From Bacteroidales bacterium (GTDB taxonomy: Bacteria > Bacteroidota > Bacteroidia > Bacteroidales > WCHB1-69), in NCBI GenBank assembly GCA_017527945.1, contig JAFXPL010000057.1, forward strand, positions 1-64,000: a DNA stretch of 64,000 nt, given 5' to 3'. A program made the position numbers and the translations under genes. The notes under the pieces were generated by a model that made no database searches, was not told where the DNA came from, and worked only from the letters and a program-made list of their open reading frames with translations. Below are positions 8,840 through 24,544 of the stretch, in pieces. Numbering within the stretch: position 1 is the stretch's first letter; every line of letters starts with the position of its first letter.

Positions 8840-8842
8840 GCT

Positions 8843-9865
8843 ATGAGAAAATTGTGGATAGACAATGATTTGGTTGACCGTCTGGCAATGTTACAGCAAA
8901 CAGAGATAGATCATCCAGGAATCAATCAGGTGGCAATAGAAAAAGACTGGTGGGTGACCGTAGTGCTAAAGGCTTTGTTCCAAACAGAATGTCGTGAATC
9001 GCTACTGTTCAAGGGCGGCACGTCGCTCTACAAAGGATTTCACCTCATCGAACGTTTTTCCGAAGACATTGACCTGTCCATCAGCCATTCTTTCTTTGGA
9101 ATAGAGCATACCAACAAAAACCAGCGCGACAAGTTGCGCAAGACGGCTCGGAGATATATCCATGAAGTCCTTTCCAAACAACTGGATCTCAACTTGAAGA
9201 ACATGGGTGTTTCTGGATACAACGTAGAGAATGTGGACCGGTGGCAGGACGACATGGGCGAATGGCATCCGATTGATTCAGACAAAGATCCAACTGTCAT
9301 TATCCTACAATATCCTTCCGTTTTGGAAGATGAGATCAATTATATTCCGCCACGAGTCAAAATTGAAATCAGTTGTTTGTCTATGGACGAGCCCACGGTA
9401 GAACGAGAAGTCCACTCGCTGATTGGCGACAGTTTTTCCGTTGAAGATAATGGAGCTCGGAGCACGATAAAAACAGTTTTGCCCACTCGCACATTTCTGG
9501 AAAAGGTACTCCTACTCGCGGAGGAATTCCAAAAAGAGAGGCCAAGAAGTGTACGCATGTCGCGTCATTTATATGATTTGGAGAAATTGATGGACACCCA
9601 ATATGGTCTTGGCGCTTTGGCGAACCGCACGCTCTATGACGCCATAGTGGAGCATCGCAGGGCATATTATGCTTTGAAGTATGTCAACTACACTCTATTG
9701 CAACCCTCCACCATCAACTTTATGATTCCAGAGCAACACAAAGAGGAATGGCAAGCTGACTACACAAATATGAGACGTTTCTTCATTTACGGCCAGTCAC
9801 TGGATTTTGACATGCTGATGGATCGGATGGCAGAATTGCAGATGAGGGTGAGGAATATGGGATAA
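8843..9865 (+). CDS. abiEii: AbiEii/AbiGii nucleotidyltransferase toxin
   Basis: 340 residues, normal for the family. The nucleotidyltransferase signature is intact: FKGGTSLYKGFHLIERFSED, where GGTS is at 58-61 and the acidic EDID at 74-77. A further conserved KIEISC strand follows. AbiEii toxins transfer nucleotides, in characterised homologues to tRNA acceptor ends, and arrest growth on phage infection. The gene pairs with abiEi (three-base gap) and converges with the exported nuclease at 9979-10773. No frameshift or missing catalytic residue is seen. Confidence 0.88.
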   Translation: MRKLWIDNDLVDRLAMLQQTEIDHPGINQVAIEKDWWVTVVLKALFQTECRESLLFKGGTSLYKGFHLIERFSEDIDLSISHSFFGIEHTNKNQRDKLRKTARRYIHEVLSKQLDLNLKNMGVSGYNVENVDRWQDDMGEWHPIDSDKDPTVIILQYPSVLEDEINYIPPRVKIEISCLSMDEPTVEREVHSLIGDSFSVEDNGARSTIKTVLPTRTFLEKVLLLAEEFQKERPRSVRMSRHLYDLEKLMDTQYGLGALANRTLYDAIVEHRRAYYALKYVNYTLLQPSTINFMIPEQHKEEWQADYTNMRRFFIYGQSLDFDMLMDRMAELQMRVRNMG

Positions 9866-9978: not shown

Positions 9979-10773
9979 TCAACGCACCCAAAGCCCGACT
10001 TCAACCTCATCTTCAATGGTTTCTTCCACGGCATCATCCAAAAATCCAAAGAAGTCATAACCCGTGAAAGATTCGACAGCGTTCACCGATTGGGCAGTTC
10101 CAGCAATGGTTACGGAGTCGGGATTGTTGGGGCAGAGGAAGGCGATGGTGTGGTAGCCATCGTCGTCGGATACCAGAAAAGCCTTGAAGAAGCTGTCGGG
10201 AACCGGAATGGCGTGGATACCGAAAGTTTGTAACTGTGACGAGGTAAACACGGGACCGCACACAATCATCACCGAATCGTATCTGACGGCCAACTTTCGA
10301 GCCAGATTCTCAATCTGGTGCCAAACGCCGTTGTTCATCTCCTTGTTTTGGGGACAGATGTTGGTAAAGTAGTCGCTCTCTTTCACCGCCTGTTCCGACC
10401 ATTTCATATCTTGCCATCGTGCCATGTGTCCTCTCACCCACCCCGAGCCGCTGTAATCCTCGTTTGTGGCTTGGGGGAGACTTAGATTCGGGTCTGGCAT
10501 GAAACAGCGTGGAATTTTGGGGGTATGTTTTGTCTGCTCAACCTGCTCGGCCGTCAAAGTATAAGATACCCAATCGGGTTGGCGGGTTGAGGGGTTGTAG
10601 GAGACGGTGAAACCTGTATAATGGATAATGGTTGAGGATTGCTGTTTTTCGTAACGTTTTCCTTGCTGTTGCGTGTCCACTAACGGATGCGGCCGATTAG
10701 GAGGCACACAAGTAATGAGTAACGACGTAATCAACAGCAAGCAGAGACTACTTCTTTGGAAGATTGTTAACAT
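9979..10773 (-). CDS. Exported DNA/RNA non-specific endonuclease (NUC family), candidate lipoprotein
   Basis: Start taken at ATG 10773, giving 264 residues that begin with a hydrophobic export signal (LCLLLITSLLITC). Cys22 could be a lipid anchor, although T at -1 is atypical for a lipobox. The beta-beta-alpha-metal nuclease core is present: GSGWVRGHMARWQDM with catalytic His116, then TNICPQNKEMNNGVWHQIE with metal-binding Asn and Glu. Family members usually have DRGH; here the Asp is Val. The gene is last in the 14-gene operon, 31 bp after the zinc-ribbon/PH-like gene. Periplasmic or surface nucleic-acid degradation is the likely activity. Confidence 0.75.
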   Translation of the reverse strand: MLTIFQRSSLCLLLITSLLITCVPPNRPHPLVDTQQQGKRYEKQQSSTIIHYTGFTVSYNPSTRQPDWVSYTLTAEQVEQTKHTPKIPRCFMPDPNLSLPQATNEDYSGSGWVRGHMARWQDMKWSEQAVKESDYFTNICPQNKEMNNGVWHQIENLARKLAVRYDSVMIVCGPVFTSSQLQTFGIHAIPVPDSFFKAFLVSDDDGYHTIAFLCPNNPDSVTIAGTAQSVNAVESFTGYDFFGFLDDAVEETIEDEVEVGLWVR

Positions 10774-10804
10774 ATCAATGAATGGTTTCACAATGTTTAT
10801 ATAC

Positions 10805-11899
10805 CTATTGATTGACAATTTGGAGCAGACACAGCACAAACCAACTGTCGAAGCCTTGCAACACCAACCGTTTTGCATCGCCTTCCTTGTGAACCTCAAT
10901 CCCATCTGTATAGGGAGTGATGCCGATCAGTTTTGCGAAAGGCACTTTGACGGCTTTTGTTGGGGATTGGAAAATCAGATGCTTGTTGGTCACATAAAGT
11001 TCCCCTGTCCCCATGTTGTTCATGTAACTATGTTCTACGGGCTTCCCTTTCATTTTACCCGTGCGCAAAGTTACTCCTTTGATTACGCGAACACTGACAC
11101 CATTGTGACGGCCTACATACTCTTTTTCTATCTTTTCCTGATACAATGTCACATTGTTATATGACCAAAGCAAGGATTCTCCTTTACCCAACACGATAGG
11201 CAGCATTGAATGTTGATTTGGTAGATTGCCGGCTTGTATATTGTTTAAGATGCTGTTTTGTGCAATTCTGGTGATGCTTCCGCTCTGATACTTAACTGGC
11301 AGATTTTGGACTTGTATATTCAGTGCAGCCATGTACTGGTTCAAAAGATGTTCCTCTTTTCCTGACAATTGACCATCTTTCAAAAAGTTGTCGGCAGCCT
11401 TGTTGAGCATATAGTGATAAGTCTCATTAATATCGTCAGGAAGAATGGGAAGTGCGCTGATAACTTTGTGAATACGATCTTGCATTTGGGCAATGTCAAT
11501 GGCACCAGTGAAATAGTCGGCGATATGTCCCTTAATGATTTTCTGCGACAACCGTGTTATTGCACCTAATTGGTTCGCGTCGGAATAAGACACTTTGAAC
11601 TGGATCAGGAACTGCGAGACCATTTGCAAGATTGACGCGGAGAACGGTCTGTGCAGCGAATCAGCGTATCGGTCGATAGCCGCTCCCGCAATATTTGCGA
11701 TATCCTCTCTGTTCAGGTAATGTTCCTTAACCAACTGTTGATATTCTTGGAGAATAGTTGTGACCCCGTTGGGATTTCGGAAATAATCGTCCACAAGCGT
11801 ACGTAACCGCACAAGCCCCTGGGTATGTTTCGTTTCGCATTCTTTATGACAGTCGGAAAAGAGTCCGACTTTTTGTCCACAGTATTTACAGGTTCTCAT
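10805..11899 (-). CDS. Zinc-ribbon protein with C-terminal PH/GRAM-like domain
   Basis: The start is ATG 11899 (MRTCKYCGQKVGLF), giving 364 residues. Four N-terminal cysteines (4, 7, 17, 21) form a probable zinc ribbon. A long helical middle follows. The last ~110 residues (GTGELYVTNKHLIFQSPTKA, then VPFAKLIGITPYTDGIEV) are a beta-rich PH/GRAM-like fold that resembles bacterial PH domains. I do not recognise a named family for the whole protein. It lies between the FtsK-like gene (80-bp gap) and the nuclease gene. It may be an adaptor that recruits partners to membrane or peptide ligands; that is inference. Confidence 0.65.
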   Translation of the reverse strand: MRTCKYCGQKVGLFSDCHKECETKHTQGLVRLRTLVDDYFRNPNGVTTILQEYQQLVKEHYLNREDIANIAGAAIDRYADSLHRPFSASILQMVSQFLIQFKVSYSDANQLGAITRLSQKIIKGHIADYFTGAIDIAQMQDRIHKVISALPILPDDINETYHYMLNKAADNFLKDGQLSGKEEHLLNQYMAALNIQVQNLPVKYQSGSITRIAQNSILNNIQAGNLPNQHSMLPIVLGKGESLLWSYNNVTLYQEKIEKEYVGRHNGVSVRVIKGVTLRTGKMKGKPVEHSYMNNMGTGELYVTNKHLIFQSPTKAVKVPFAKLIGITPYTDGIEVHKEGDAKRLVLQGFDSWFVLCLLQIVNQ

Positions 11900-11988
11900 A
11901 ATTTTCAAATAATATTCCTAAAAAGACACCTTCTATAATTGGATAATCACTTTGACAAATTGTTCTTTGATTGATTTAAGATATTTCA

Positions 11989-13752
11989 TCATAACAACTG
12001 TAAATCTGCAAGATGTTGCCTTAGTTCTGTTTCTGTTTTTATAAGCACTTGTCTCGGTTTACTCCCAATTCCTGGCCCTACAATCTTTAAATCTTCCAAC
12101 TGTTCCATAACACGTCCCGCCCTATTATAACCAAGAGACAACTTGCGTTGGACTACAGAAGCGGATCCCGCCTGAGTTTGCACTACGAGTGTAGCAGCTT
12201 CTATTATTAATGGATCAAGCTCGTTAGAATTGTATGGCTCAGTAATACTAAATTCATCCATAATGTATGGAACATCGGGCAACTCATACGGCATCAACAA
12301 AGGATAAGATGTGGATTGCTTTTTGATGAAATTCATAATTCTATCAGTCTCTTGGACATCCACAAAAGCACATTGTAGATGGGCGACTTCACGTGCACTT
12401 TTGAATATCATATCGCCATTCCCTGTTAATTGGTTTGCACCAACAGATTCAAGTATCGTTCTTGAATCAGCAGCAGAAACCATACGAAATGCCATACGAG
12501 CCGGGAAATTTGCCTTAATATTGCTGGTAACGACATCGGTAGAGGGTCTTTGCGCAGATATGATTAAATGAATACCTGTTGGCCGAGACAACTGAGCCAA
12601 ACGTGTCAAGGGTTCTTCAACTTCCTTTTTGGCATTGATTATCATATCAAAATCATCAATAACAACAACAATGTAAGGGAGATACCTGAAGCCCAATGAA
12701 AGGGAAAGCTCACGTGAACAGAATTTTTTATTGTATTCCTTAACACTTCTTGTTTGAGATTTTTTTAGCAATTCATATCGCGAATCCATTTCTATGCAAA
12801 GAGATTGCAATATACTCGGGACTTGTTTTTTGTCAGTAATGATAGTATTTCCGCTAAATGGAAACTTAGCCAGGTAATAACTTCCCATAGCCGCATAGGA
12901 AGAATACTCCAAATCTTTTGGATCTACAATCACAAACTTCATTTCAGAAGGATGTTTCGCATAGAGCAAAGATGTGATAATCGCTTGTATTCCTACTGTC
13001 TTTCCTTGACCCGTTGTACCAGCAATCAACAAATGTGGCATTTTTGCCAAATCAAAAACATAAACATCACCTCGGTCCGTTTTCCCTATTCCTACAGGCA
13101 ATTCGTAAACACTGTTTCTAAATGTATCAGAGGATAGAACCTCCCTAATTGGAACAATGTTTACTCCTTCTTCATCTGCTATATTTGCATAATCTTTATT
13201 GAAAAAATCTATTGAAGGGAACACGAAGTGAGATAATTCATTTCGGGGATCGTAAGGCCCGACTTTTAGACTCTCTTTGAATTGGGTGTTATCATGAGTA
13301 TTCTCATCAATGTTCTGTCTCTCGCTTGACCCAACCGGGTTTGGATTAGTACTCGTGTTCTGCTCAAAGAATTTTTCTTGCTTTGGAATAGTTTTAAGTT
13401 GTGACTCAATTTCTGACAGCTGTTGGAGGGTGTCTTTGGCTTTAGAGATTTTCCCCATCATTTGATACGTTTCTGCCAACATTTGATAGCTGTTCTTGTT
13501 GTTAGGGTAAGAATGGATCGCTTCTTGGAAATACTCCAAAGCTTGAGTATATTCACCCGAATTAAAGAATTTCAACCCTGTCAGATAATATTCATTTTCA
13601 CAGGAACTGCAGTCTGCCGCCTGCATCACATCAATGCTCTCCAAAGCGCTCTTGTGATCAGAGATAAACAAATCTTCGTAGTCGTCTATTTCTTCAAGCT
13701 TTGATGGTATTTCTTTTTTATTTTTTTTCTTAAATAAATGTCGAAATATCAT
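11989..13752 (-). CDS. Soluble FtsK/SpoIIIE-type DNA translocase with N-terminal TPR
   Basis: 587 residues from ATG 13752 (a TTG six codons upstream is less likely). Residues ~50-120 form TPR helices (YYLTGLKFFNSGEYTQALEY). The RecA-like motor has Walker A AGTTGQGKTVG near 244-254, Walker B VVVIDDFD, and HLIISAQRPSTDV. A C-terminal gamma winged helix follows (ASVVQRKLSLGYNRAGRVME), the part that reads DNA orientation signals in FtsK. Housekeeping FtsK has an N-terminal membrane domain; here it is missing and a TPR module stands in its place. The gene lies 34 bp after the TPR-MORN gene, whose TPR is similar. The likely activity is directed movement along DNA, recruited by protein-protein contacts. 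Confidence 0.82.
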   Translation of the reverse strand: MIFRHLFKKKNKKEIPSKLEEIDDYEDLFISDHKSALESIDVMQAADCSSCENEYYLTGLKFFNSGEYTQALEYFQEAIHSYPNNKNSYQMLAETYQMMGKISKAKDTLQQLSEIESQLKTIPKQEKFFEQNTSTNPNPVGSSERQNIDENTHDNTQFKESLKVGPYDPRNELSHFVFPSIDFFNKDYANIADEEGVNIVPIREVLSSDTFRNSVYELPVGIGKTDRGDVYVFDLAKMPHLLIAGTTGQGKTVGIQAIITSLLYAKHPSEMKFVIVDPKDLEYSSYAAMGSYYLAKFPFSGNTIITDKKQVPSILQSLCIEMDSRYELLKKSQTRSVKEYNKKFCSRELSLSLGFRYLPYIVVVIDDFDMIINAKKEVEEPLTRLAQLSRPTGIHLIISAQRPSTDVVTSNIKANFPARMAFRMVSAADSRTILESVGANQLTGNGDMIFKSAREVAHLQCAFVDVQETDRIMNFIKKQSTSYPLLMPYELPDVPYIMDEFSITEPYNSNELDPLIIEAATLVVQTQAGSASVVQRKLSLGYNRAGRVMEQLEDLKIVGPGIGSKPRQVLIKTETELRQHLADLQLL

Positions 13753-13804
13753 ATCAGTAATCGTTTTCAAACACTAATTAATATGCTTTTAAGATACAAT
13801 ATAG

Positions 13805-14572
13805 TTAGAATTGTATATTTGGCCAACATTTGATAATGCTTGCCACAAGCTCGGCATCAATTCTGTCGGCATCTTTATTGGTCGGGACAAATACCATGTT
13901 AATAAAACGCCCCGTTAGAGTTTTTCCAGTATTATCTATTACGGTACATTCCTCTTTGGGATCTAATTCTGATCCATGAAACGTACCTTCTATTATTATC
14001 CCGTTGGATAAAGTAATCGTACACCGCCCGCAAGGCAATGAGTTTTTCAAATATCCCTCTATTTTTGTGCCGCCTGGCAAAAGTATTAGCCCGTTCTCAA
14101 CAACATCATCGTTAAAATGTGAGATAACAACGGCTCCATTTGAACTTTTCATAATACCCTCACCATACATTGTACCATGTCGCATACAGCCGCTATAAAA
14201 TGTGCCATCGGGTCGGATGAATGTTCCATACTTATGGGGTTGTTTGTTTTCATCAACGCATCCGTAATAGATTGGCGTGTTGAGAGACGCACCCTTATTG
14301 TACAACATATTCTCACCCCCAAAGTTTATGGATAGTTCTCTCATAGCATTTTGATTGTTTGGATTGATAGAGAGTAATCTATGCAAAGTTTTTCTATGTT
14401 CCAGTTCTTTTCCAGTGTTCTTATAACACTTGGACAGATACAAGTATGCAGTTTCATTACGGGGACTATTTTCAATTTCCGCCTGAAAAAACTCAATGGC
14501 GGTGAGATAATCCTCTTGTTCGTAAAGGCTTAGCCCTTTTTTGAAATATTGATCCTGATTCGTTTTTTCCAT
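13805..14572 (-). CDS. TPR and MORN-repeat protein
   Basis: 255 residues. The N-terminal ~75 residues are TPR (FKKGLSLYEQEDYLTAIEFF; ETAYLYLSKCYKNTGKE). Residues ~100-225 contain MORN-like units (YGTFIRPDGTFYSGCMRHGT; IEGYLKNSLPCGRCTITLSN; IIIEGTFHGSELDPKE). MORN repeats are beta hairpins often used as membrane-proximal or protein scaffolds. No signal peptide is present, so it is cytoplasmic. It lies 31 bp after hxsC and 34 bp before the TPR-FtsK gene. The shared TPR style suggests the two proteins are partners in one complex (inference). Confidence 0.75.
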   Translation of the reverse strand: MEKTNQDQYFKKGLSLYEQEDYLTAIEFFQAEIENSPRNETAYLYLSKCYKNTGKELEHRKTLHRLLSINPNNQNAMRELSINFGGENMLYNKGASLNTPIYYGCVDENKQPHKYGTFIRPDGTFYSGCMRHGTMYGEGIMKSSNGAVVISHFNDDVVENGLILLPGGTKIEGYLKNSLPCGRCTITLSNGIIIEGTFHGSELDPKEECTVIDNTGKTLTGRFINMVFVPTNKDADRIDAELVASIIKCWPNIQF

Positions 14573-14603
14573 GATAACAGATAGTTTTTTCTTTAATACT
14601 CTT

Positions 14604-15476
14604 TTAGAGGTTCATTGGTTTTATTCCCTGAAATTTACATTTAGAAGTGCTGAATAAGCCACAGCACATCTCTTTCACATCACAATCATTGCAGATTGCA
14701 AGGAACTTCACTTTCCAATCGGAAATGCTTTGTTTTGCAAACGGCCAGCAATCGTGCGGCAACAGACACAAAGGGATATTGTAGATGGCCACATCCATTC
14801 GCCAATCGTCCATTGCCATTACAGCCTCTCGCAATATGGAAGCGTACTCATTGGGTTCCACCCAAATTTTCTCTGCATTTTTAACAGACAAACCAACTCT
14901 TTCCATTCCCATAAAAGCGGTCCATGCAACAAACGGCAGATTTTTGAAAATGTATTCAGCCATTCTTGGTAATCTAGTATAGTTGAGTTTATTGACAACC
15001 ACTCTCAGTTCAATCTCAACACCAGCATCAGCAAGATTGTACAATCCTGTCATCGTCTCATCATAGGCGTGTTTACTGCCTGCTATCAAGTTGTGGTCCC
15101 CGGAATAATCCGAGTGGAATGGAATTCCAACAAAAAAGTTCTCTCCCGCAGCTTGACATACTTCTCGTGTAAAAGCAGTATCCTTGAAAGCACGTCCATT
15201 GCTCAATAATTGAATGGCAGTTTCTGGCAGGCATTTACGAACTTCTTGCAAAAGAGTAATCAATTTGCCTCCAAGCAAAGTAGGTTCGCCTCCGGTAATA
15301 CCCAGCACCTTCAATTCTTTTGGGGCTGAATACAACAACTGTATGTTGTGCTCATACAAAGACTCAATATCATCCACCTTACCAGGTGGTTGGCAGCACA
15401 TCAAACAATGGTTGTTGCATTGAGCTGTTACGAACAAAGCATTGTCGTTAGAGTTGATGTCAAATTCCGTCCTCAT
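14604..15476 (-). CDS. hxsC: His-Xaa-Ser system radical SAM maturase HxsC
   Basis: 290 residues with the radical-SAM cluster motif CNNHCLMC at residues 20-27, followed by CQPPG and ITGGEPTLLGGKL, as in HxsC proteins (TIGR03977 type). Extra cysteines near the C-terminus (CNDCDVKEMCCGLF, then CKF) could hold an auxiliary cluster. The start codon overlaps the hxsB stop by four bases. HxsC is one of two radical-SAM enzymes presumed to modify the partner HxsA; the chemistry has not been established to my knowledge. Its fixed place next to HxsB and HxsD supports the assignment. Confidence 0.85.
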   Translation of the reverse strand: MRTEFDINSNDNALFVTAQCNNHCLMCCQPPGKVDDIESLYEHNIQLLYSAPKELKVLGITGGEPTLLGGKLITLLQEVRKCLPETAIQLLSNGRAFKDTAFTREVCQAAGENFFVGIPFHSDYSGDHNLIAGSKHAYDETMTGLYNLADAGVEIELRVVVNKLNYTRLPRMAEYIFKNLPFVAWTAFMGMERVGLSVKNAEKIWVEPNEYASILREAVMAMDDWRMDVAIYNIPLCLLPHDCWPFAKQSISDWKVKFLAICNDCDVKEMCCGLFSTSKCKFQGIKPMNL

Positions 15477-16873
15477 AGCAGCCAGCGTTTAAAGATGGGA
15501 AGTACTTCTTCTTCACGCTCAATAATCAGCGTAATCAAATACTCAATAATGGCTTTGTTCTTCTTGCAAAGCAAAGAGGTGGGGCGATGCCCGTACATAT
15601 CGCCCTGAGTGGAATAGTTGCGCACAGGGTCGGCTCCACAATAGTTTCTCAAAGCACAGTCGGAACAACCGGCGAGAGTTTCGTTAGCCCATATTTGTGC
15701 TATCCTTTGCACCTTTGGACCAAAAACAATATCTTCGTACCGATCGTGGACACTACCCAATCGGAAGGTGTTGTCGCCGTTTTCGGCCAACATTCGCGAC
15801 TCATCGGACGCATATACATATCCGTCGTAGTTGTAAACCAACACCGAATTGATGATACCGGCTGGCGATTGAAGATCCACAAACCCTGTGCAGAAAGGCG
15901 TCAGCATCTTGCGGAGGACAATCACGGCAAACTCCTCCATAAAGAAGGTTCCCTGTTTGTTTATCTCCAAAATATGCTCGAAAGCGATCTTGTAAAACTC
16001 AATGAAACGCTCTGTGTATTGATACCAGTTATGATTGTAGGCAGCCAATCCGTATGGATTCAAAGCACGTAAGAAAAGGCCGTTAAATCCCATTCTCACA
16101 TATTCATCCACAATCTCTATTGGATAATCCAACGCCATTACCGATGTTGTCTGCAATGGGGAAACCATATCAAAGCCCAAAGCTTCACGAGCTTTCTCTA
16201 TACCAGCCACCACTTTCTCGTAGCTGTCGGTTTTTCCTCGATTCGTATTATGCAAAAATGACGGACCATCCAGCGAAGTGGAAATCATAACCTGATACTG
16301 CTTGCAAATATCCAGCATCTCATCGGTTAGATGGACACAGTTGGTGCAAAGAACATATCGCATCTCGCGATTCTCATTTTCATTGATACGTTCTGCTGTC
16401 TCTATACCAAATCGTATCAGCTCTGGATGCAAGCTCGGTTCGCCTCCTTGGAATTCCATTGTCAGCACGGGTGCTGGAGAACGGAACATCAGTTTGACGG
16501 CACTCTCCATCGTGTTGAACGACATTGTGCAATGAACACTTTGTTCCGTCCGGCTTGATGCCTGACAATAGACGCAGTTTTGATTGCATTGGAGGGTGAC
16601 AACAAAAATATGCAGAGCCGTAAAATCATCCAGAAAGCGTTTTTTCTCACGCAGTCGGGAAACATATATATCGAGATTGGCAGGAATCCTGTTCTCGCTA
16701 ATGAAATAGTTTGCTACAAGGTCTTTGTAGGTATCATCTTCTTCCAACTGATGGCTTACAATCTTATCCACACTACCATCGGGCAACACCAACATGTCGC
16801 CAAACTCATTCACCAATACCTCATGATTGGCAATGCGGGTAAAGTCGAATGGAAGAAGATAATATGTTTTCAT
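15473..16873 (-). CDS. hxsB: His-Xaa-Ser system radical SAM maturase HxsB
   Basis: 466 residues. The radical-SAM motif CNQNCVYC is at residues 96-103. FQGGEPSLHPELIRFGIE binds SAM as in peptide maturases. The C-terminal SPASM-like cysteines include CSDCALRNYCGADP and a late LLCKKN. Length and layout match HxsB (TIGR03978 type). It overlaps hxsD and hxsC by four bases each, so the maturation genes are translated as a block. The enzyme probably installs a modification on the histidine/serine-rich segment of HxsA; the exact product is unknown. Confidence 0.87.
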   Translation of the reverse strand: MKTYYLLPFDFTRIANHEVLVNEFGDMLVLPDGSVDKIVSHQLEEDDTYKDLVANYFISENRIPANLDIYVSRLREKKRFLDDFTALHIFVVTLQCNQNCVYCQASSRTEQSVHCTMSFNTMESAVKLMFRSPAPVLTMEFQGGEPSLHPELIRFGIETAERINENENREMRYVLCTNCVHLTDEMLDICKQYQVMISTSLDGPSFLHNTNRGKTDSYEKVVAGIEKAREALGFDMVSPLQTTSVMALDYPIEIVDEYVRMGFNGLFLRALNPYGLAAYNHNWYQYTERFIEFYKIAFEHILEINKQGTFFMEEFAVIVLRKMLTPFCTGFVDLQSPAGIINSVLVYNYDGYVYASDESRMLAENGDNTFRLGSVHDRYEDIVFGPKVQRIAQIWANETLAGCSDCALRNYCGADPVRNYSTQGDMYGHRPTSLLCKKNKAIIEYLITLIIEREEEVLPIFKRWLL

Positions 16874-17169
16874 TGCTCAACCTCCTCATCAAAATCGTCA
16901 CAATCGGCAAACGCTTTTGCATACAGTATTGTGCGAATATCCTTCGTTTCAGAAGCAATGATTTCACGTGCCTTATAGTCATTCAGCATTTGAAGAAACG
17001 CATGTCGGGTTTCCTCCTCGGAAACTGAGCTGTCTCGAGGAGTTATCTCAACCGATTCTTTTGCACCATCTAAAGAACGGTGGCAGTCGTAATCTTTTGA
17101 CAGCGCGTATATGCTCTTGGTAATGCAAGCGTCAGAATATATTTTTCTATCAATTATGCATTCTATCAT
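16870..17169 (-). CDS. hxsD: His-Xaa-Ser system protein HxsD
   Basis: A 99-residue protein beginning MIECIIDRKIYSDACITKSI. It has a short beta-alpha layout (ALSKDYDCHRSLDGAKESVE; ARHAFLQMLND-type helix) and an acidic tail, as expected for HxsD (TIGR03976 type). It may present the substrate to the radical-SAM enzymes in the manner of a peptide-recognition element, but that is inference. It overlaps hxsA by four bases upstream (ATGA) and hxsB by four bases downstream. Confidence 0.8.
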   Translation of the reverse strand: MIECIIDRKIYSDACITKSIYALSKDYDCHRSLDGAKESVEITPRDSSVSEEETRHAFLQMLNDYKAREIIASETKDIRTILYAKAFADCDDFDEEVEQ

Positions 17170-18083
17170 TTGTTTTCGTATTTGGTTGAAGATTTAAGTT
17201 TGTTGATTGTTATCAAATCAGCACGCCCTGTTACGGTTAATCCAGCGAATGCCTGAAACACACGAACAGCCGTTGCCACATCTTCCGTATAGACGAACTT
17301 GTCGTTATCTTTTTTGAACAAATTCGGATTAGGTGGGCATTTCGCTTCATTTAGTAATTGGATTAACATACCCACATCATCCCCAGAACAACCCACATAT
17401 AAATCGCGCATTCCTAATCGCAGTTGGGTTTTCGATGGAGTCCAATTTGAGAGGACTTTATTGGAGTTAGCATCAAAAATGCCGTTAGTGGCAAGAAACG
17501 CATCTTCTTGAAAATATTTCACCGCTTGTTCCACTTGGCTATCAAACAAATAATATCCAGACTGTTTCTTCAAGCCATCAGTTCTCAAGTATTTGCAATT
17601 CACCAACTTGTCCACCAATTCATCAACATCAGCTCCATAAAGACCTTTTTTCAATGTCCGATCCCCTAATGAATATGTTTCAAATGTCTTTTTAGGAGTA
17701 GAGTACAAACTCGCGGTTCCATTTGTTAAGACTGAACTACTACTTGAAGATCTATAACTGCTACTGCTCGAATAATGAGAACTAGAATAGTGTGAACTCG
17801 AATAATGGGAACTATGACCGCTTCTGCTTGATCGATGAGAGCTGTGTGAACGATGAGAACTGTGTGATCGATGGTCATTTACACCATAGAGATTGCCGGA
17901 AGGCCCTATTTTAATGACATTATGGTATGTTTTTGTTTTAACAAGCTGATCCACAGTGTTATTCTTATCTTCATCATCCAACAATTTCGGCATTACTATT
18001 TCAGCTTTTGCTGTAGTGTTTATCAAAGAATATGCAGCCGAAATTAACAGAGCTTTTATCAATTTTTTTTGATGCCTTTTCAT
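17166..18083 (-). CDS. hxsA: His-Xaa-Ser repeat protein HxsA
   Basis: 305 residues. A basic N-terminus and hydrophobic stretch (KALLISAAYSLINTTAKA) form a Sec signal, so export is expected. Residues 71-106 are a run of HRS, HSS and HYS triplets, the defining feature of HxsA (TIGR03979 type), followed by poly-Ser. The C-terminal half has two peptidoglycan-binding-like units (KKGLYGADVDELVDKLVN, then VEQAVKYFQED; YVGCSGDDVGMLIQLLNE, then VATAVRVFQAF). The start overlaps the preceding stop by one base. It is the presumed substrate of HxsB and HxsC. The mature product is probably attached to or near the cell wall. Confidence 0.88.
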   Translation of the reverse strand: MKRHQKKLIKALLISAAYSLINTTAKAEIVMPKLLDDEDKNNTVDQLVKTKTYHNVIKIGPSGNLYGVNDHRSHSSHRSHSSHRSSRSGHSSHYSSSHYSSSHYSSSSSYRSSSSSSVLTNGTASLYSTPKKTFETYSLGDRTLKKGLYGADVDELVDKLVNCKYLRTDGLKKQSGYYLFDSQVEQAVKYFQEDAFLATNGIFDANSNKVLSNWTPSKTQLRLGMRDLYVGCSGDDVGMLIQLLNEAKCPPNPNLFKKDNDKFVYTEDVATAVRVFQAFAGLTVTGRADLITINKLKSSTKYENK

Positions 18084-19339
18084 TACTGTTTTTCTTTAAT
18101 GATGTGTAACCAATAATTATCTTTATCACACAACAAGAGAGTATCTATTTTTGACAGTACAGCTATTGTGCGTTCTCCACGATTACTTGAAATTTCATTT
18201 AACAGTTCTACTATATTTTTCTCAATCGCAGCATTAAGAATCGAATCAACTTCGACAAGTCGGGCGTTTTTTGCCTCAGTTTCTTCGTTTGTTAATATCT
18301 CATCTGATGGTATGCTGTCCAACATTTTTTTGACCATATAGCAATCACTTGGGGAAGGTAAGGTCTTATTTGATAAATACACTTTACTCTTCTGCACACA
18401 TTTGTCGCATAAACCAAGGATAAGTTCCAATCGTTTTTGCATTGCTTCTTCTCTATACTGATCAGTAGCCCAAATGCATGTATAATTATCAGCGGCTTGC
18501 TGGTAGTAATTCAATGCGGAAAGATAATCATGTTGTTCCGCAGCACTATCTCCCAATGCAATTGAAGATTCAAAGGCTGCCATATAAGGTTTGACTTTAT
18601 TATATTCATGGTTTGAAACAACTATCACAAAAACAACAAAGCCTATCAAAACAGCCAAAATTATTCTTCGGTTGCGTCTGCGTTTTTGTTTTCGAATTTT
18701 ATTTTTAATTATCGCATTTTTAGAATCAATATCTTGTTGAACTTTTTTCAAAAAACTATTCTTTTTGATGTCACACCAATTATCATATTTAGAAGAAAGA
18801 ATCTCATAAGCGTTTCTTATCTTTTCTTCCAACGCAAACAATTCAGCATTAGATTCGGGTGTATAATAGGCTGATTGAAGGCCTGAAGAATCTTCATCTA
18901 TTGTTATTGAATTGATGAGTAGTTTCAAATAAGCATCCTTTAGCTTGGACAACAAATCGGGATCTTCACTGGTTACATTTATATTCTGCCAAGTTATTGT
19001 AATATCGTTGATCAATCCTATTCCATATAAAAGAGCTTCGGATACGGTGTTAACAGACGCGGAATCATGTTGGGTTTTCCTAATAAAACCATCTATAAAC
19101 TTATCGTTTAGGGTTTTCCAACCAACACTTGGATGAGTTGACCAATAATACACCTTTCTTCCATAGCCCTCATTGAGGATGTCTTTCATAACACTCTTTA
19201 AGTTTGAACTTACAATCGGATTCTGAGGATATGCGTTATAATCCAACAAAACACCGTAAAAGGTATCCTCTTTGATAGCTTTTGTCCCTAGATCGAAAAT
19301 AGCCTGTTTAACAGCAATATGTAATTCGTTTTGTGCCAT
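18083..19339 (-). CDS. Single-pass membrane protein of unknown function
   Basis: 418 residues. The N-terminal ~215 residues are soluble and helical (VKQAIFDLGTKAIKEDTFYG; LKSVMKDILNEGYGRKVYYW). A basic KQKRRRNRR stretch (218-225) precedes one membrane helix at 226-242 (RIILAVLIGFVVFVIVVS). That topology puts the N-terminus inside and the C-terminus outside. The outer ~170 residues look TPR-like (AAEQHDYLSALNYYQQAADN). I do not recognise the family. The gene touches hxsA by one base and follows the PP2C gene by 65 bp. It is positioned to link the cytoplasmic phospho-signalling proteins with exported HxsA (inference). Confidence 0.7.
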   Translation of the reverse strand: MAQNELHIAVKQAIFDLGTKAIKEDTFYGVLLDYNAYPQNPIVSSNLKSVMKDILNEGYGRKVYYWSTHPSVGWKTLNDKFIDGFIRKTQHDSASVNTVSEALLYGIGLINDITITWQNINVTSEDPDLLSKLKDAYLKLLINSITIDEDSSGLQSAYYTPESNAELFALEEKIRNAYEILSSKYDNWCDIKKNSFLKKVQQDIDSKNAIIKNKIRKQKRRRNRRIILAVLIGFVVFVIVVSNHEYNKVKPYMAAFESSIALGDSAAEQHDYLSALNYYQQAADNYTCIWATDQYREEAMQKRLELILGLCDKCVQKSKVYLSNKTLPSPSDCYMVKKMLDSIPSDEILTNEETEAKNARLVEVDSILNAAIEKNIVELLNEISSNRGERTIAVLSKIDTLLLCDKDNYWLHIIKEKQ

Positions 19340-19404
19340 TTATTCTTGAGTAAACTAGGATTTCGTCATTATGATAATCTCATTAACAACACCGCACCAA
19401 GTTA

Positions 19405-20463
19405 TTACTTGTCTTCTTTTATGTGTGCTATCTTTTTATCAATTAACATCTTTTCGTTCCCAAAATGTAATAATTCAGAGAACAAGGAGTCTTTTGTCGG
19501 CACTGGTGGATGATCATAAATAATTTGATGCCAGGCTGAAGCAATCTTACTAGCAAGAGTCTTCTGTTTGGTCATCAAGCGTTGCACCTGCCAAGCTGAC
19601 AATTGAGTTGTCATACCTTCCAATCGCTCATCATACCACCCCGCCACAGACATGTCATCTTGACTACCGCGTTTGCTGAGGACAGGCAACGTTGCTATCA
19701 AATCAGCAATGGTGGCATCATATCCATCCTTGGCAAAACCTTTGGCCAATTGGATGTAGAAATTGTACAGGTTTTCTTCCTCGCCAAACGAGTCGTCAAT
19801 GCCATCGCTGCCCATAAACACTGCGATCGGGAAAGACTCTTTGCCCCCAATGCAATATCGGAACTCTCTTGCGGCATCCGTGTCGCAAATAGAGGTGGTT
19901 TTGTTTAGAAAGCATTTGTCATCCCATGGAATCGGTTCGCAGGGGACTCCCTCGTTGTCAATGACCACACATTTTCCGTCGCCTATCTGAAACGCCAACC
20001 AAAACTGAGGGGTGAGGAGTGTCGCAATGAGCGTGCAACCATACGTCTTCTCCCACTCATGGTCATCTTTCGGATTTGCTATGAGTTGTTCTGTCTCGGT
20101 TAAGGGATTTGCCGTTGCATGTTCCAAGACGGCATTCCGCCACCCTACCACAATAGCTTCCACTAATCGCTGTAGTTCAGGATGATAGGTGTCGCCAATG
20201 CCAACCGGTGTGCTCGACAAATCGGCAAACAAGGACGGGGAAATGCCCTCTGCAAACTCCACTAAACATCGGTGAGCCACTTCCACCACAATCTTCGATC
20301 CCACATCGCTACGAAAATAACGCTCTCCGCCATGGCCATCACTGACCATAGCGATAGCATATCCTTCCGTTTTGATACTGAACGAAAAGTCTTGGCAGGG
20401 TTTGCTCGTTGCTTTGTGGCTTTCACCCTGACAGTGGCTGTTAAAGCACTTAATCCCAATCAT
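19405..20463 (-). CDS. PP2C-type Ser/Thr phosphatase (TerY-P triad)
   Basis: The start is ATG 20463 (MIGIKCFNSHCQGES), giving 352 residues. An upstream in-frame extension lies inside the vWA gene. PP2C metal ligands are visible: PCQDF (Asp25), VSDGHGGERYFRSD (Asp42) and later SDGIDDSFGEEENL. The C-terminal DDMSVAGWYDERL is the last PP2C metal motif. It overlaps the vWA gene by 14 bp. The kinase, vWA and PP2C set matches the TerY-P triad described from comparative genomics of tellurite-resistance-linked stress systems. It should reverse phosphorylation by the adjacent kinase. Confidence 0.85.
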   Translation of the reverse strand: MIGIKCFNSHCQGESHKATSKPCQDFSFSIKTEGYAIAMVSDGHGGERYFRSDVGSKIVVEVAHRCLVEFAEGISPSLFADLSSTPVGIGDTYHPELQRLVEAIVVGWRNAVLEHATANPLTETEQLIANPKDDHEWEKTYGCTLIATLLTPQFWLAFQIGDGKCVVIDNEGVPCEPIPWDDKCFLNKTTSICDTDAAREFRYCIGGKESFPIAVFMGSDGIDDSFGEEENLYNFYIQLAKGFAKDGYDATIADLIATLPVLSKRGSQDDMSVAGWYDERLEGMTTQLSAWQVQRLMTKQKTLASKIASAWHQIIYDHPPVPTKDSLFSELLHFGNEKMLIDKKIAHIKEDK

Positions 20464-21190
20464 CGTAGGAAACGGTTGAAGATGGAGCGGAAGCCACTTC
20501 GGCGCCGCCGATATTGTCAACCGCCGACTTCACTTCTGCGATTACTTGTTCCTGCTTGGTTGTATCGCCAGCCGTACTGCTCTTGCTGCCGATCTGTGAG
20601 GAAGTAACGGCCACAATACGAATCACTTGCTTCAGGGCTTCAATATTGTGGACAGTGAAAACGGCTTCGTTAGTCCCGGTGAACTGTGCCAACACTTCTT
20701 TATCTGCATCTTCTCCAATCGCTACAGCCACCTTGATGGCGGCCTTGAACCAATTGTTGTTTTTCAACACAGCAAGTCCTGATTCAAAATCATCCGTTGG
20801 AGCTCCGTCAGAAAGCAATATGATAGCAGGTGCGAAAGAGCCGCTGGCGGATTTCATAAATCCACTTCTGGACAGTTTGCCTGACAATTCTTTGCAAGCA
20901 GCACCGAGAGAAGTAAGTGCTGATGCTTGAACATCTTGCCAGACAAACTCATTAGCGGGTTTGGGCTCGTTATAGAGCCAATGGCAGGTGGTGGAGAATT
21001 CCAATGCAGCCACTTTGATTTCTGCATCGGGGTTTTCTGCGGAAATTTCCTCCAACATGGGAAGAACATTGACCACGGCGTCATTTACGGCACCAATCTT
21101 ACTGCCAGCCATACTGCCGGAGGTGTCAATCATGAAGAAAAGCGTCATTGTGCGACGCGGGATTTCTACGGTTTCGTCTAAAAGTGACAT
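20450..21190 (-). CDS. TerY-like von Willebrand A domain protein
   Basis: 246 residues, almost entirely one vWA domain. The metal-ion-dependent adhesion site is intact: FFMIDTSGSMAGSKIGAVND (DxSGS at 22-26), a central TSLGAA and LLSDGAPTDDF. TerY proteins of this class act as phospho-target or scaffold components with a kinase and a PP2C phosphatase. A low-complexity tail ends in SYDDWD. It lies 58 bp after the TerY-C zinc gene and overlaps PP2C. In many relatives TerY and the TerY-C zinc domain are fused; here they are separate genes. Confidence 0.88.
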   Translation of the reverse strand: MSLLDETVEIPRRTMTLFFMIDTSGSMAGSKIGAVNDAVVNVLPMLEEISAENPDAEIKVAALEFSTTCHWLYNEPKPANEFVWQDVQASALTSLGAACKELSGKLSRSGFMKSASGSFAPAIILLSDGAPTDDFESGLAVLKNNNWFKAAIKVAVAIGEDADKEVLAQFTGTNEAVFTVHNIEALKQVIRIVAVTSSQIGSKSSTAGDTTKQEQVIAEVKSAVDNIGGAEVASAPSSTVSYDDWD

Positions 21191-21248
21191 GATGGTATGT
21201 TTTTACGTTATTATTAAAATTTCTTTTTTCTATATAGTTTCAATGCTA

Positions 21249-21620
21249 CTAATATGCACTTCCTTCAATATTAATCTTTTCAACTTGGGTTATCTCCCCT
21301 TTACAACCACATTTTGGACAAGTAACATGACTTTGACCATGGTAACATATAATTGTATGGCAATTATTACAACTATACCAGTGTTTAGATTCACAATAAG
21401 GACACCCAGGAAAGTTTGCATCTTCGACGATTCTTCCAGACACCTTGATGCGATCATACCCTTCTCTTTGAGCCTTTTCATAATCGATTTTGAAAGACCA
21501 CACCATCTTATACAAACCAAATTCCCCCTTATCTACGGTAATCCCATAGGGCTTCTTTGTTTTTTCACACATCGCCAGTGTGACAAACGCAGCTTCGCTT
21601 AAAGGTGTAATTTCAGGCAT
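21249..21620 (-). CDS. TerY-C-like zinc-binding protein
   Basis: 123 residues. The C-terminal half has closely spaced CxxC pairs (FPGCPYCESKHWYSCNNCHT; VTCPKCGCKGEI) with a HG turn between them, the layout of the metal-binding TerY-C domain (PF15616). The N-terminal half (EAAFVTLAMCEKTKKPYGIT; YDRIKVSGRIV) is beta-rich. The start is two bases after the kinase stop, so the pair is translationally linked. It is expected to bind metal and connect TerY to the kinase; that role is inferred from the triad's gene order. Confidence 0.8.
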   Translation of the reverse strand: MPEITPLSEAAFVTLAMCEKTKKPYGITVDKGEFGLYKMVWSFKIDYEKAQREGYDRIKVSGRIVEDANFPGCPYCESKHWYSCNNCHTIICYHGQSHVTCPKCGCKGEITQVEKINIEGSAY

Positions 21621-21622
21621 AG

Positions 21623-22888
21623 TTATCTTGATATTATTTCTCCTTTAGTCGTTTGATTGAAAGAGACTTTGATTCCCTCCTTCACTGGCACACACTCTCC
21701 AGGTGCAACTGTTTTCAACTTTCCGCTAGGAGTTTCCGCCGTCCATGTAGTATCCGATGAAAGATTCTTTAAGAGCAATAATCCTGCTTTTGCATCCTTT
21801 AACACCAACACATCGGCATTGTTGTCGTGGTCAATATAGAGTTTGGTACCTCCTGTTAGAAAGACATTTCGATTGCCTATTTTAAGCGATAGAGGAACTT
21901 CTACATCCTTTCCACAGTTCATACACATGCTCTTGCCCTCTTCGATAAAGGTTTCTCCTTTGCAATGGGGGCAGATAACAAGGCTATCGCGCAGGGTTGC
22001 AATCAACTTCTCCCAATTCTGCTCAAGCATACGTTTCTGCGGATTTCGGAGTATTTCTTCGCTAAACTCACGAGTGAACGTGTTCCGCAGAATTGCAGGC
22101 AAAACCGGCCAACGGCGAATGACATTTTGATGGATTCCTCGAACAGGGAGGTTGCTTTTGTCGTTGGGGTTATAGATGAATACCGCCTCACTTCCGTAAA
22201 ACTTCTTCTCGTAAGTATCAGTCATACAAGGACAGGCAACAACCTTTGCACCTTCGAGCGGATGGTTGACATAGAAGAGCATGAAGAGGATGACGGACAA
22301 CGAATAGCGGTCGCTGTACTTGTCGGGAATGCCACCGGCCACAACTTCGGGTGCCATATAGCGGGCTTTACCCATGATGCCTGACTTCTCGCCCTGGGGC
22401 ATCACATTGTCATTGTCGCAGATGAGGACGTCTCCTGTTTTCGGATCGATGAAGAAGTTGCCATCGTTCAAGTCCTGATAGCTGTAACCGAAACGGTGGA
22501 GCATCATGAAGCCATTGCATATCTTCATAGCAGCGTTCAGCATCGCGTCGAAACTGGCAAACTTGACTTTCGCCATCAAAAAGTTTCCAAACTCGAAATA
22601 GTTGCCAGGTCGTAAATCCATAAGGTATCCGAAACTACCTTGTTGACGTTCGGCAAGTGCCTTTGGCCAAAGAAAAGCATCACTCGGTGCTCCATTCAGA
22701 ATATTGTTGTTGAGATTGTTGTAAAAACAGCTGTCCAGAGCGTTCAGATACCATTTCAACGCCATATCCTTGCCGTTGTAATCCACCAAATAGACAATTC
22801 CCTGACCACCGCGTCCAAGTTCTTTCTTGATGGTCACAAAACCGCCGTTCGACAATGTTATTTTCGTTCCTTTGGATAATTCTATCAT
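21623..22888 (-). CDS. Protein kinase with zinc ribbon and C-terminal beta domain (TerY-P triad)
   Basis: 421 residues. The kinase fold has a glycine loop GRGGQGIVYLV (25-35) and Lys45. The catalytic loop is YSYQDLNDGNFF, where HRD is replaced by YQD but Asp139 and Asn144 are kept. The DFG position reads DND (158-160), and MAPE is at 178-181. After the kinase comes a zinc ribbon (CPHCKGETF, then CMNCGK) and a ~90-residue beta-rich tail (KIGNRNVFLTGGTKLYIDHD) that may be an FHA-like phosphopeptide reader. The atypical motifs are common in TerY-linked kinases. It is the second gene of the operon, 27 bp after the channel gene. Confidence 0.86.
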   Translation of the reverse strand: MIELSKGTKITLSNGGFVTIKKELGRGGQGIVYLVDYNGKDMALKWYLNALDSCFYNNLNNNILNGAPSDAFLWPKALAERQQGSFGYLMDLRPGNYFEFGNFLMAKVKFASFDAMLNAAMKICNGFMMLHRFGYSYQDLNDGNFFIDPKTGDVLICDNDNVMPQGEKSGIMGKARYMAPEVVAGGIPDKYSDRYSLSVILFMLFYVNHPLEGAKVVACPCMTDTYEKKFYGSEAVFIYNPNDKSNLPVRGIHQNVIRRWPVLPAILRNTFTREFSEEILRNPQKRMLEQNWEKLIATLRDSLVICPHCKGETFIEEGKSMCMNCGKDVEVPLSLKIGNRNVFLTGGTKLYIDHDNNADVLVLKDAKAGLLLLKNLSSDTTWTAETPSGKLKTVAPGECVPVKEGIKVSFNQTTKGEIISR

Positions 22889-22915
22889 AAAACGTTATAT
22901 TACTTGTAACAACAA

Positions 22916-23677
22916 TCAATTATCTTCATTCCCGTCTTTTTTCAGTTGTTTCAACTCGTCCAAATAACTAGCTGTGATAACACCTGATGGCAGTGCAATG
23001 ATAGCAATGCCAAAGAGGGATGACATCATGCTGACCACTCTTCCAAAATCCGAAACGGGATACACATCGCCGTAACCCACCGTGGTCAAAGAGGTGGTCG
23101 CCCAGTACAATGCATCAAAGAATGATTCAAAAACTACAACACCATCTGCATCGGGTTTATTAAGTTCCACATTAAACATGATAAGAGCTGTGGTGAAAAT
23201 GTAGAAAAGGGCAATCGCCAAAACAGTCAATAAGACATAACGTTCTTTTTTGAAGACGCGAAACAGCATCTGTATCCGAGTGGAATATCGCAAAACTTTG
23301 AGCAAGCGAAGCAGTTTCAGCAAGCGTATGGTCCTCAGAATCTTGTACGTCCGCCCAATCAAGTTTAAAGAAGGCAAAATAGACAGCAAATCTATGATTG
23401 CCATAAAAGTGAACGGATACGTGGCAAACGCAAAGGCTGGCTTCCTATCTGGATGTCGAAAATCAGCGGTAATCCATCTTGCAAAATAGTCAAAGACGAA
23501 TGCTGTAACGGATATTCGGTCAAACCAAACGAAAAGTTCCAACTGCGTTTTGAACATCAGAGGTATAAGACTGACAACAATCATGGTAAGCATAAAGCAA
23601 TCGTATGCTATGCTTGCCGTTGAACGATCTGTGTCTTTCTCAATAATAGAAAACAACCTTTGTCGGTCCATCTTCAT
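22916..23677 (-). CDS. Voltage-gated potassium channel (Kv-like ion transport protein)
   Basis: 253 residues with six predicted membrane helices. The S4 helix carries regularly spaced Arg/Lys (RTYKILRTIRLLKLLRLLKV). The pore loop ends in the K+ selectivity filter TTVGYGDVYP. A short cytoplasmic tail (YLDELKQLKKDGNEDN) follows S6, with no RCK domain. Two adjacent ATG codons (23677 and 23671) are possible starts. This is the first gene of the minus-strand operon and lies downstream of the structured RNA's terminator. It would couple membrane potential or K+ efflux to the kinase module, but that link is inference. Confidence 0.88.
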   Translation of the reverse strand: MKMDRQRLFSIIEKDTDRSTASIAYDCFMLTMIVVSLIPLMFKTQLELFVWFDRISVTAFVFDYFARWITADFRHPDRKPAFAFATYPFTFMAIIDLLSILPSLNLIGRTYKILRTIRLLKLLRLLKVLRYSTRIQMLFRVFKKERYVLLTVLAIALFYIFTTALIMFNVELNKPDADGVVVFESFFDALYWATTSLTTVGYGDVYPVSDFGRVVSMMSSLFGIAIIALPSGVITASYLDELKQLKKDGNEDN

Positions 23678-24362: not shown

Positions 24363-24544
24363 CGGCCATGATTGGTGTTGATATGAGATAGTATGTGTTG
24401 AACCTAAAGATCTAACAACAATCATTTTGCAAAAAGAATATCAGAAAAGCTGCCAAACGCCCGAATATTAATAACTTTCTAAATGTCAATAAGATAAAGA
24501 AAATTTGAAAATTTTATCACGTGCTCAAATTACAGACTATTAAG

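Follow-up and report, generated by a model that had tools for sequence, protein, structure and literature searches.

Do the TerY-P signalling triad and the Hxs radical SAM cassette form one fixed machine when they stand in one row of genes, and what would such a row do? This question is raised by a locus within 64,000 nucleotides of DNA of a gut-type Bacteroidales bacterium (positions 1 to 64,000 of contig JAFXPL010000057.1, assembly GCA_017527945.1; hereafter the window). According to the list of open reading frames (ORFs) of the window, 14 open genes run in tandem along the minus strand, from 23677 to 9979, just where an earlier note on this DNA had placed them. In 5′ to 3′ order they encode a K+ channel (Kch), a protein kinase (Kin), a TerY-C protein, a vWA protein, a PP2C phosphatase, the membrane protein TM418, HxsA, HxsD, HxsB, HxsC, a TPR-MORN protein, a TPR-FtsK protein, a Zn/PH-like protein and a nuclease. 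The earlier note had taken these for one fourteen-gene operon, but a fixed 14-gene machine is not supported: among the triad loci compared, FtsK and Hxs stand together only in the window, and the closest relative, G005, carries an AbiH set in the place of FtsK. From DNA comparisons and a kinase tree we conclude that the Hxs cassette behaves as exchangeable cargo. In relatives, the Hxs cassette occupies the place that a known anti-phage gene takes in other strains, which suggests a part for Hxs in a modular immune system. To the following reading of the sequences we would give an even chance: in Bacteroidales, TerY-P could control a modular platform of immunity against phages or mobile elements, and Hxs would be one exchangeable envelope cartridge of it.

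Chassis and cargo of the TerY-P loci

The triad of kinase, vWA and PP2C was compared in 24 loci (22 genomes, the window and one plasmid), ten with Hxs (G381 included) and 14 without. Genes of the relatives were called by a simple longest-ORF script. DNA comparisons give the clearest evidence for cargo exchange: among close relatives, different cargo lies between flanks that are 84-95% identical in DNA. G004 and G692 have in common 4071 bp (PP2C, vWA, kinase and most of the nuclease) at 90% identity and the 1188 bp gene of the PH-like protein at 94%. Between these blocks lie 6.9 kb with TM418 and hxs genes in G004, compared to 2.65 kb coding for two TPR proteins and AbiH in G692. G692 and G212 share chromosomal flanks of 8.6 kb at 91% and 7.5 kb at 89%, and carry AbiH and TPR-FtsK cargo, respectively; they also differ by a 2302-residue adaptor-bearing protein after PP2C. 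The window matches G005 at 94.7% over 10.8 kb and at 89% over the last two genes, and the slot between the matching blocks holds FtsK in the window and, in G005, an AbiH set with a gene that by eye looks like a transposase. AbiH cargo was found in G005 (L055 5543-6499, 3e-24) and G692 (G692:C18:37111-38100), adjoining TPR proteins. A 147-residue second nuclease-like piece, probably a remnant, was also observed in G005 downstream of AbiE-like genes (L055 11135-11578). In G761, the PP2C-to-kinase DNA is 95.5% identical to the window, whereas the Hxs cassette shows 28-68% protein identity (TM418 28%, HxsA 51%, HxsB 68%) and the K+ channel is precisely absent. The Hxs label changes seven times on the kinase tree, with at least five changes forced by well-supported branches, and is unclustered (112 of 500 shuffles were as low).

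Judging from gene content, these comparisons show a chassis of kinase, vWA and PP2C, often joined by TerY-C, the Zn/PH-like protein and an exported EXOG/NucA-type nuclease. The cargo kinds shown in the same way are TM418-HxsA-HxsD-HxsB-HxsC, sometimes accompanied by a coiled-coil-type protein and the K+ channel; TPR-FtsK; and AbiH sets. In the fetched stretches, the PH-like protein was found in 9 of the 10 triad loci with Hxs and 6 of the 14 without, the nuclease in 9/10 and 5/14, the coiled-coil-type protein in 7/10 and 0/14 and the K+ channel in 5/10 and 0/14, counts that cut contigs lower, more so among the 14 loci without Hxs, and that come from relatives not independent of each other. All nine channel rows found sit in Hxs loci. 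FtsK is present in one locus with Hxs, the window, compared to three of the 14 without. By these sequence-based counts, FtsK is optional cargo and the K+ channel accompanies Hxs.

The recurrent neighbourhood and its genes

An initial HxsB scan of public genomes gave 11 loci. An even sample at order level (393 genomes) was then combined with genomes of three families (190, 173 and 104), some of them also part of the order sample. In the order sample, HxsB occurred in 15 and the kinase in 6 of the 393 genomes, with 3 genomes having both (p 0.0008 in a one-sided Fisher test, and 0.011 when the centre genome is dropped). In the combined set, HxsB was found in 26 genomes, the kinase (at least 400 bits) in 22 and both in nine. 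Not counted were the kinase matches of G664 and G829 (about 73 bits) and of G778 (a 54-residue piece at a contig edge), and G006, G007, G009 and G011 from the initial scan lie outside the 26 HxsB genomes. G560 and G431 each have a second contig with the same HxsB sequence, and G560 also with the same kinase; these were counted once per genome and kept as separate tree rows. The two halves lie on one contig in eight other Bacteroidales genomes. TerY-P and Hxs form one recurrent neighbourhood, which supports the joining of the two that the earlier note had described. In the ninth, G381, they are on two separate short contigs and adjacency is not visible. The gap between kinase and HxsB is 3.6-6.1 kb in 10 of 10 contigs with both (the window and eight genomes, G560 twice). 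The remaining 13 kinase genomes gave no HxsB match anywhere at E 1e-25, a soft absence in drafts of untold completeness, and locus counts are partly dependent owing to related genomes. The halves thus do occur apart, one half of what the earlier note had named as refuting its combination; the other half, that they meet only here, did not hold.

In the HxsB tree, all triad-linked sequences fall within one 15-row clade (11 rows with triad; support 100/99), separate from the Hxs of other Bacteroidales loci and of Hymenobacter. Three members of this clade, G001, G066 and G431 (the last with two identical contigs), have no triad within the fetched stretch. A nuclease adjoins Hxs without the triad in G010, G431, G066 and G101. 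Elsewhere, seven TPR-domain proteins stand in a row, at about 8 kb distance from a canonical HxsB that has no triad (L093, G536:C21, 10707-19998); the FtsK motor profile gave no match to them. In a plasmid collection, HxsB-like genes were seen in 339 records at E 1e-40, 315 of them from Klebsiella. One Klebsiella plasmid stretch carries hxsDBCA between insertion-sequence genes, with no annotated TerY gene within 15 kb.

The link between the halves would be TM418 (18083..19339, minus strand, like all genes of the operon), which consists of an N-terminal helical adaptor-like domain, one transmembrane segment and a C-terminal TPR-like part and is encoded directly upstream of HxsA. This position is kept in the window and 10 relatives of the HxsB clade; G001 and G431 lack it. 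No full-length TM418 without HxsA was seen among the fetched loci. A single transmembrane segment was found in 12 of 12 full-length rows, and the N-side is more positive in 11 of these. Because of this one segment and the charge of its N-side, the N-terminal helical domain is predicted to be cytosolic and the TPR-like part periplasmic. A structure model has a mean predicted local distance difference test score (pLDDT) of 86 and a predicted template modelling score (pTM) of 0.44, and does not fix the relative placement of the domains. In the fetched loci, triad loci without Hxs among them, 27 proteins carry the adaptor domain (25 with more than 80 bits). On a Methylomonas plasmid (L121, 11989-17739), a related kinase-vWA-PP2C set is followed by three paralogues with one common N-terminal stretch, the first carrying Sel1 repeats, which is an adaptor-like pattern in another phylum.

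The genes from TM418 through HxsC overlap their neighbours by 1-4 bases; the remaining gaps, by hand reading, are at most about 90 bases. PP2C and TM418 genes overlap in G008, G189 and G560 (starts from the longest-ORF script). No terminator-like site was found on the minus strand between PP2C and hxsA, which is weak evidence against the other refuting condition of the earlier note, that transcripts end there. In the comparison of the window with G005, the ratio of non-synonymous to synonymous changes (dN/dS) was 0.04-0.28 for 13 of the 14 genes, the values for TerY-C, vWA and HxsC depending on few changes (two for HxsC); FtsK has no counterpart in G005. This constraint, together with the tight spacing of kinase and HxsB, argues that the operon is not due to chance. 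The synonymous distance dS is 0.73 for HxsA, 0.50 for HxsD and 0.80 for the nuclease, and 0.006-0.16 for the other ten genes. These high values point to allele exchange, as it appears from the sequences, and not to relaxed selection.

Pfam matches agree with the domains that had been assigned to the kinase, PP2C, vWA, TerY-C, FtsK, channel and nuclease proteins. The TerY-P kinase (21623..22888; Pkinase PF00069, 4e-13) carries two C-terminal CxxC pairs that resemble a zinc ribbon, which zinc-ribbon models match below cut-off (E about 0.01). Its motifs GxGGQG and YQDLNDGN are kept in 25/25 rows and CDND in 24/25. The DTSGSM MIDAS motif of the TerY-like vWA protein (20450..21190; VWA PF00092, 4e-10) and DGHGG of PP2C (19405..20463; PP2C_2 PF13672, 4e-32) are kept in 24/24 rows each. 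The TerY-C metal-binding protein (21249..21620) matches PF15616 at 1.4e-7, with 32.1 bits against a cut-off of 28.4, and the voltage-gated-type K+ channel (22916..23677; Ion_trans, 4e-26) has a TVGYGD filter. The ORF list probably places the start too early for two genes: PP2C, open to 20520, likely begins at about 20463, and the nuclease gene, open to 10905, has its ATG at 10773.

The radical SAM motif CxxxCxxC is intact in both putative maturases, HxsB (15473..16873; CNQNCVYC; TIGR03978, 560.9 bits against a cut-off of 370) and HxsC (14604..15476; CNNHCLMC; TIGR03977, 325.2 against 267.9). HxsD (16870..17169) scores 75.5 bits against 50 for TIGR03976. These three carry the names that the earlier note gave them. 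The fourth (17166..18083) stays under the NCBIfam cut-offs for HxsA (31.3 against 121.65 bits) and HxsA2 (30.7 against 48), yet has a leader and a His-Xaa-Ser region with nine HxS triplets, and is therefore named HxsA-like; with its peptidoglycan-binding domains (PG_binding_1 PF01471, 4e-14) it looks exported and peptidoglycan-binding.

Downstream follow a TPR-MORN protein (13805..14572), cargo of a TPR-X kind with weak TPR and MORN matches below cut-offs and a TPR stretch in common with FtsK, and the exchangeable TPR-FtsK cargo itself (11989..13752, open to 13770). The latter has N-terminal TPR, a match to FtsK 2iut across residues 203-577 and a gamma domain (FtsK_SpoIIIE PF01580, 1e-40; FtsK_gamma PF09397, 5e-22). 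Two chassis components complete the operon. The first (10805..11899, open to 11908) combines a C-C-H-C-H zinc motif, a helical part and a PH/GRAM-like domain. The second is the exported, lipoprotein-like EXOG/NucA-type nuclease (9979..10773; VRGHM ... NICPQ; Endonuclease_NS PF01223, 2e-48), whose leader from ATG 10773 resembles the lipoprotein type. In it VRGHM replaces the usual DRGH, human EXOG carries SRGHM at the aligned site, and the EXOG match is 1e-22.

Defence company, proposed signalling and alternatives

Both flanks of the operon hold plus-strand genes that resemble defence genes. The AbiEi-AbiEii pair (8225..9865; PADLOC AbiEi 3e-56, AbiEii 3e-91) is the AbiE neighbour that the earlier note had named. 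On the other side (24521..30377) it had named Avs1, an assignment that we do not keep: the MBL gene has its best PADLOC matches to RTasMBL (1e-85) and LmuA (1e-60), with Avs1a at just 6e-27, and is followed by a trypsin-like NACHT protein of 1627 residues. The layout of this stretch is nevertheless Avs1-like. In 14 of the 22 kinase genomes, which hold about 41 Mb, 57 AbiEii matches were found. AbiEii lies within 17 kb of the kinase in seven of these 14 (in G359 by a 68-residue piece only), where about 0.7 would be expected by density, several of the loci being close kin.

Zorya genes were seen in further loci with the triad. The Prevotella sp. E2-28 plasmid pE2-28 (L118, 17624-37041) has full Zorya II (ZorA2 5e-157, ZorB2 2e-80, ZorE2 9e-68) together with the same triad, whose kinase is 61% identical to that of the window, an annotated TerY-C, a PH-like protein, a UvrD-like helicase and two FtsK proteins. 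Five of its proteins bear the TM418 adaptor domain, including both FtsK proteins and a formylglycine-generating-enzyme-like protein. As a plasmid of an isolate, pE2-28 is a cultivable test case. In G623, ZorA2, ZorB2 and ZorE2 (4e-143, 3e-82 and 7e-84) lie about 9 kb from the triad; this locus (L146, G623:C17, 1045-17206) also has a WG-repeat protein and, by eye, an Hsp70-looking protein, and so shows one more type of partner for TerY-P. G222 gave weaker matches to ZorB (1e-13) and ZorA (1.5e-8), and its TerY-P locus (L104-L105, G222:C34) contains a caspase-like protein with an apparent leader. G639 has a ZorB match (2.5e-11) with an adjoining gene that gave no ZorA match. Hxs was not found in these four fetched loci. 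A divergent triad in G540 (L117, G540:C71, 346-16856) has next to it a tubulin-like protein, whose Pfam matches stay under the cut-off, and another with very weak likeness to ZorA. With AbiE adjoining, AbiH in slots and Zorya genes in sister loci, the defence setting proposed by the earlier note is supported.

How might the parts work together? HxsB and HxsC would modify the His-Xaa-Ser part of HxsA, which would be exported and bind peptidoglycan. The periplasmic TPR-like part of TM418 may read HxsA, and the cytosolic side would offer the same helical adaptor domain as other cargo proteins of these loci. An envelope disturbance, for instance phage DNA entry, could then set the kinase/phosphatase switch, and the switch would release effectors, namely the nuclease in the periplasm, efflux of K+ and cargo of the FtsK or Abi type. 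We infer this direction of the signal, from HxsA via TM418 to the TerY-P switch and on to the effectors. Two further ideas of the earlier note, the sensing of membrane potential and the moving of DNA, are guesses. Such a flow is plausible in view of published passages reporting that TerY-P by itself protects Pseudomonas aeruginosa PAO1 from phages (PMC10889362), that peptidoglycan binding by ZorB is important for Zorya, whose type II has the nickase ZorE as effector (PMC11890865), and that repeated effector-associated domains (EADs) link effectors to cores in other conflict systems (PMC7159879). A more specific version, by analogy, is tentative: Hxs might be an interchangeable envelope cartridge in the role that the ZorAB motor has in sister loci, with a radical-SAM-modified, peptidoglycan-bound protein that detects phage entry and signals via a single-pass adaptor to a switch firing swappable effectors. 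If true, the orphan Hxs family would gain a first function, and it would appear that a phospho-switch can be combined with several envelope devices (Hxs, Zorya) and several kinds of killer. Hxs is widespread, with matches in the 339 plasmid records, and its place among the exchangeable cargoes makes its function directly testable.

Several observations weigh against this proposal. The same role for Hxs and Zorya rests on analogy, because no swap of Hxs for Zorya at one site was seen and the contrast in ZorB (0/10 triad loci with Hxs, 4/14 without) does not reach significance (p 0.11). Having defence genes nearby is no proof of a defence role. Hxs has an existence of its own: 17 of the 26 HxsB genomes have no TerY-P kinase, and Hymenobacter and Adhaeribacter plasmids showed no TerY genes within 12 kb of Hxs. 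On the HxsB tree the triad label needs four changes, three of them forced, which means that the triad is missing from, or was lost by, part of the clade's Hxs loci. No Pfam model above cut-off and no known EAD family matched the adaptor domain, and structure searches with it returned nothing firm. Additionally, five of the nine relatives with both halves are titled metagenome-assembled genomes (L002-L005, L008), the other four are drafts, and several contigs stop inside the locus.

A reversed order, with a cytosolic sensor, is nearly as good as the sensor reading of Hxs. Here TerY-P would sense a cytosolic cue and Hxs would be the output: acting through TM418, modified HxsA would alter the wall, the channel or export, sealing or killing the infected cell. 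The AbiH or FtsK held by the slot elsewhere is effector-like cargo, as an output would be, and the restriction of the K+ channel to Hxs loci fits as well. However, TM418, with its adaptor inside and TPR-like part outside, suits both directions, and a chassis without Hxs would need a sensor of its own, of which none was identified. Taken by itself, we regard this arrangement as unlikely.

It seems rather improbable that the locus serves a surface or stress response instead of immunity, with TerY-P tuning HxsA export and wall attachment under metal, antimicrobial or envelope stress and the nuclease digesting outside DNA. A historical link of ter genes to tellurite resistance is mentioned in PMC11090510, HxsA and the nuclease look exported, and the nuclease also adjoins Hxs where the triad is missing. 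On the other hand, the sharp exchange with AbiH and FtsK is typical of conflict systems and less so of housekeeping stress responses, and both the sparse kinase (6/393 genomes) and the company of AbiE, AbiH and Zorya are conflict-system traits. Least probable is that TerY-P and Hxs stand side by side in a defence island and do not work jointly, since the common strand, the PP2C/TM418 overlap in three relatives, a full-length TM418 found only with Hxs whose adaptor domain is nonetheless present in triad loci without it, and the single clade with all triad-linked HxsB speak for a connection, even if each half is found alone and MBL-NACHT and AbiE genes flank the operon.

Comparison with known systems

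Full-text literature searches, with most subscription journals outside their coverage, gave among the matches listed no paper joining TerY-P to Hxs, in line with the earlier note, which knew of no such full combination, and none that ties Hxs to phage defence. Likewise, the listed matches included no paper for TerY and Zorya with domain terms, and none on a function for Hxs. The Hxs family itself has been described, and a passage of PMC9062424 calls its maturation putative; PMC8446631 only lists hxs genes, and PMC6537148, matched by His-Xaa-Ser and phage, appears to deal with carbohydrate islands. Hxs is an unexpected partner of TerY-P, whereas coupling of TerY-P as such is known: the triad occurs as a stand-alone defence system and as a CoCoNuT accessory, and its joining to other systems is described in PMC11090510.

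Like the TerY-P triad, the window has a kinase with C-terminal Cys pairs, a PP2C and a MIDAS vWA protein, and it adds a separate TerY-C protein; unlike the triad, it joins these to Hxs, TM418, the PH-like protein, the nuclease and the channel. CoCoNuT III-A loci are reported to insert ATPases between vWA genes, one kind being of the FtsK superfamily (PMC11090510), whereas Pfam gave no McrB-type GTPase or CnuH-type helicase model above cut-off for any of the 14 proteins. Partial matches to the MADS proteins mad6 (kinase, 1e-10) and mad8 (FtsK-like, 3e-27) span only common domains, and no methyltransferase domain was found by Pfam among the 14 proteins. EAD-coupled systems (Kaur et al. 2020, PMC7159879) also are described as repeating a small helical domain on several proteins of one operon, and kinase/PP2C/vWA genes are noted there beside GAP1-N2 systems. 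In contrast, no MoxR, VMAP or GAP1 core was found by Pfam among the 14 genes, and the domain repeated here has no Pfam match above cut-off.

With known Hxs loci the window shares HxsB, HxsC and HxsD above the NCBIfam cut-offs and HxS repeats in a leader-bearing HxsA; a peptidoglycan-binding protein before hxsD is also present in hxs loci of Hymenobacter and Adhaeribacter. Among the differences, HxsA of the clade has about 250-325 residues (183 in G008) and lies below the curated models, with peptidoglycan-binding domains in that of the window; HxsC of the clade has 290-314 residues compared to 373-384 in most other fetched loci (291 in G010, outside the clade); and a TerY-P chassis stands alongside. 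From Zorya type II (ZorA2-ZorB2-ZorE2) the window differs in that it has no ZorA, ZorB or ZorE match: profiles grown from pE2-28 matched none of the called genes in its first 36 kb, and PADLOC scans of nine of the 14 operon proteins gave no ZorA or ZorB match. In the logic proposed here the two are alike, each combining a peptidoglycan-bound envelope part with a nuclease, and Zorya type II itself occurs in TerY-P sister loci whose kinases belong to the family of the window's kinase (pE2-28, G623).

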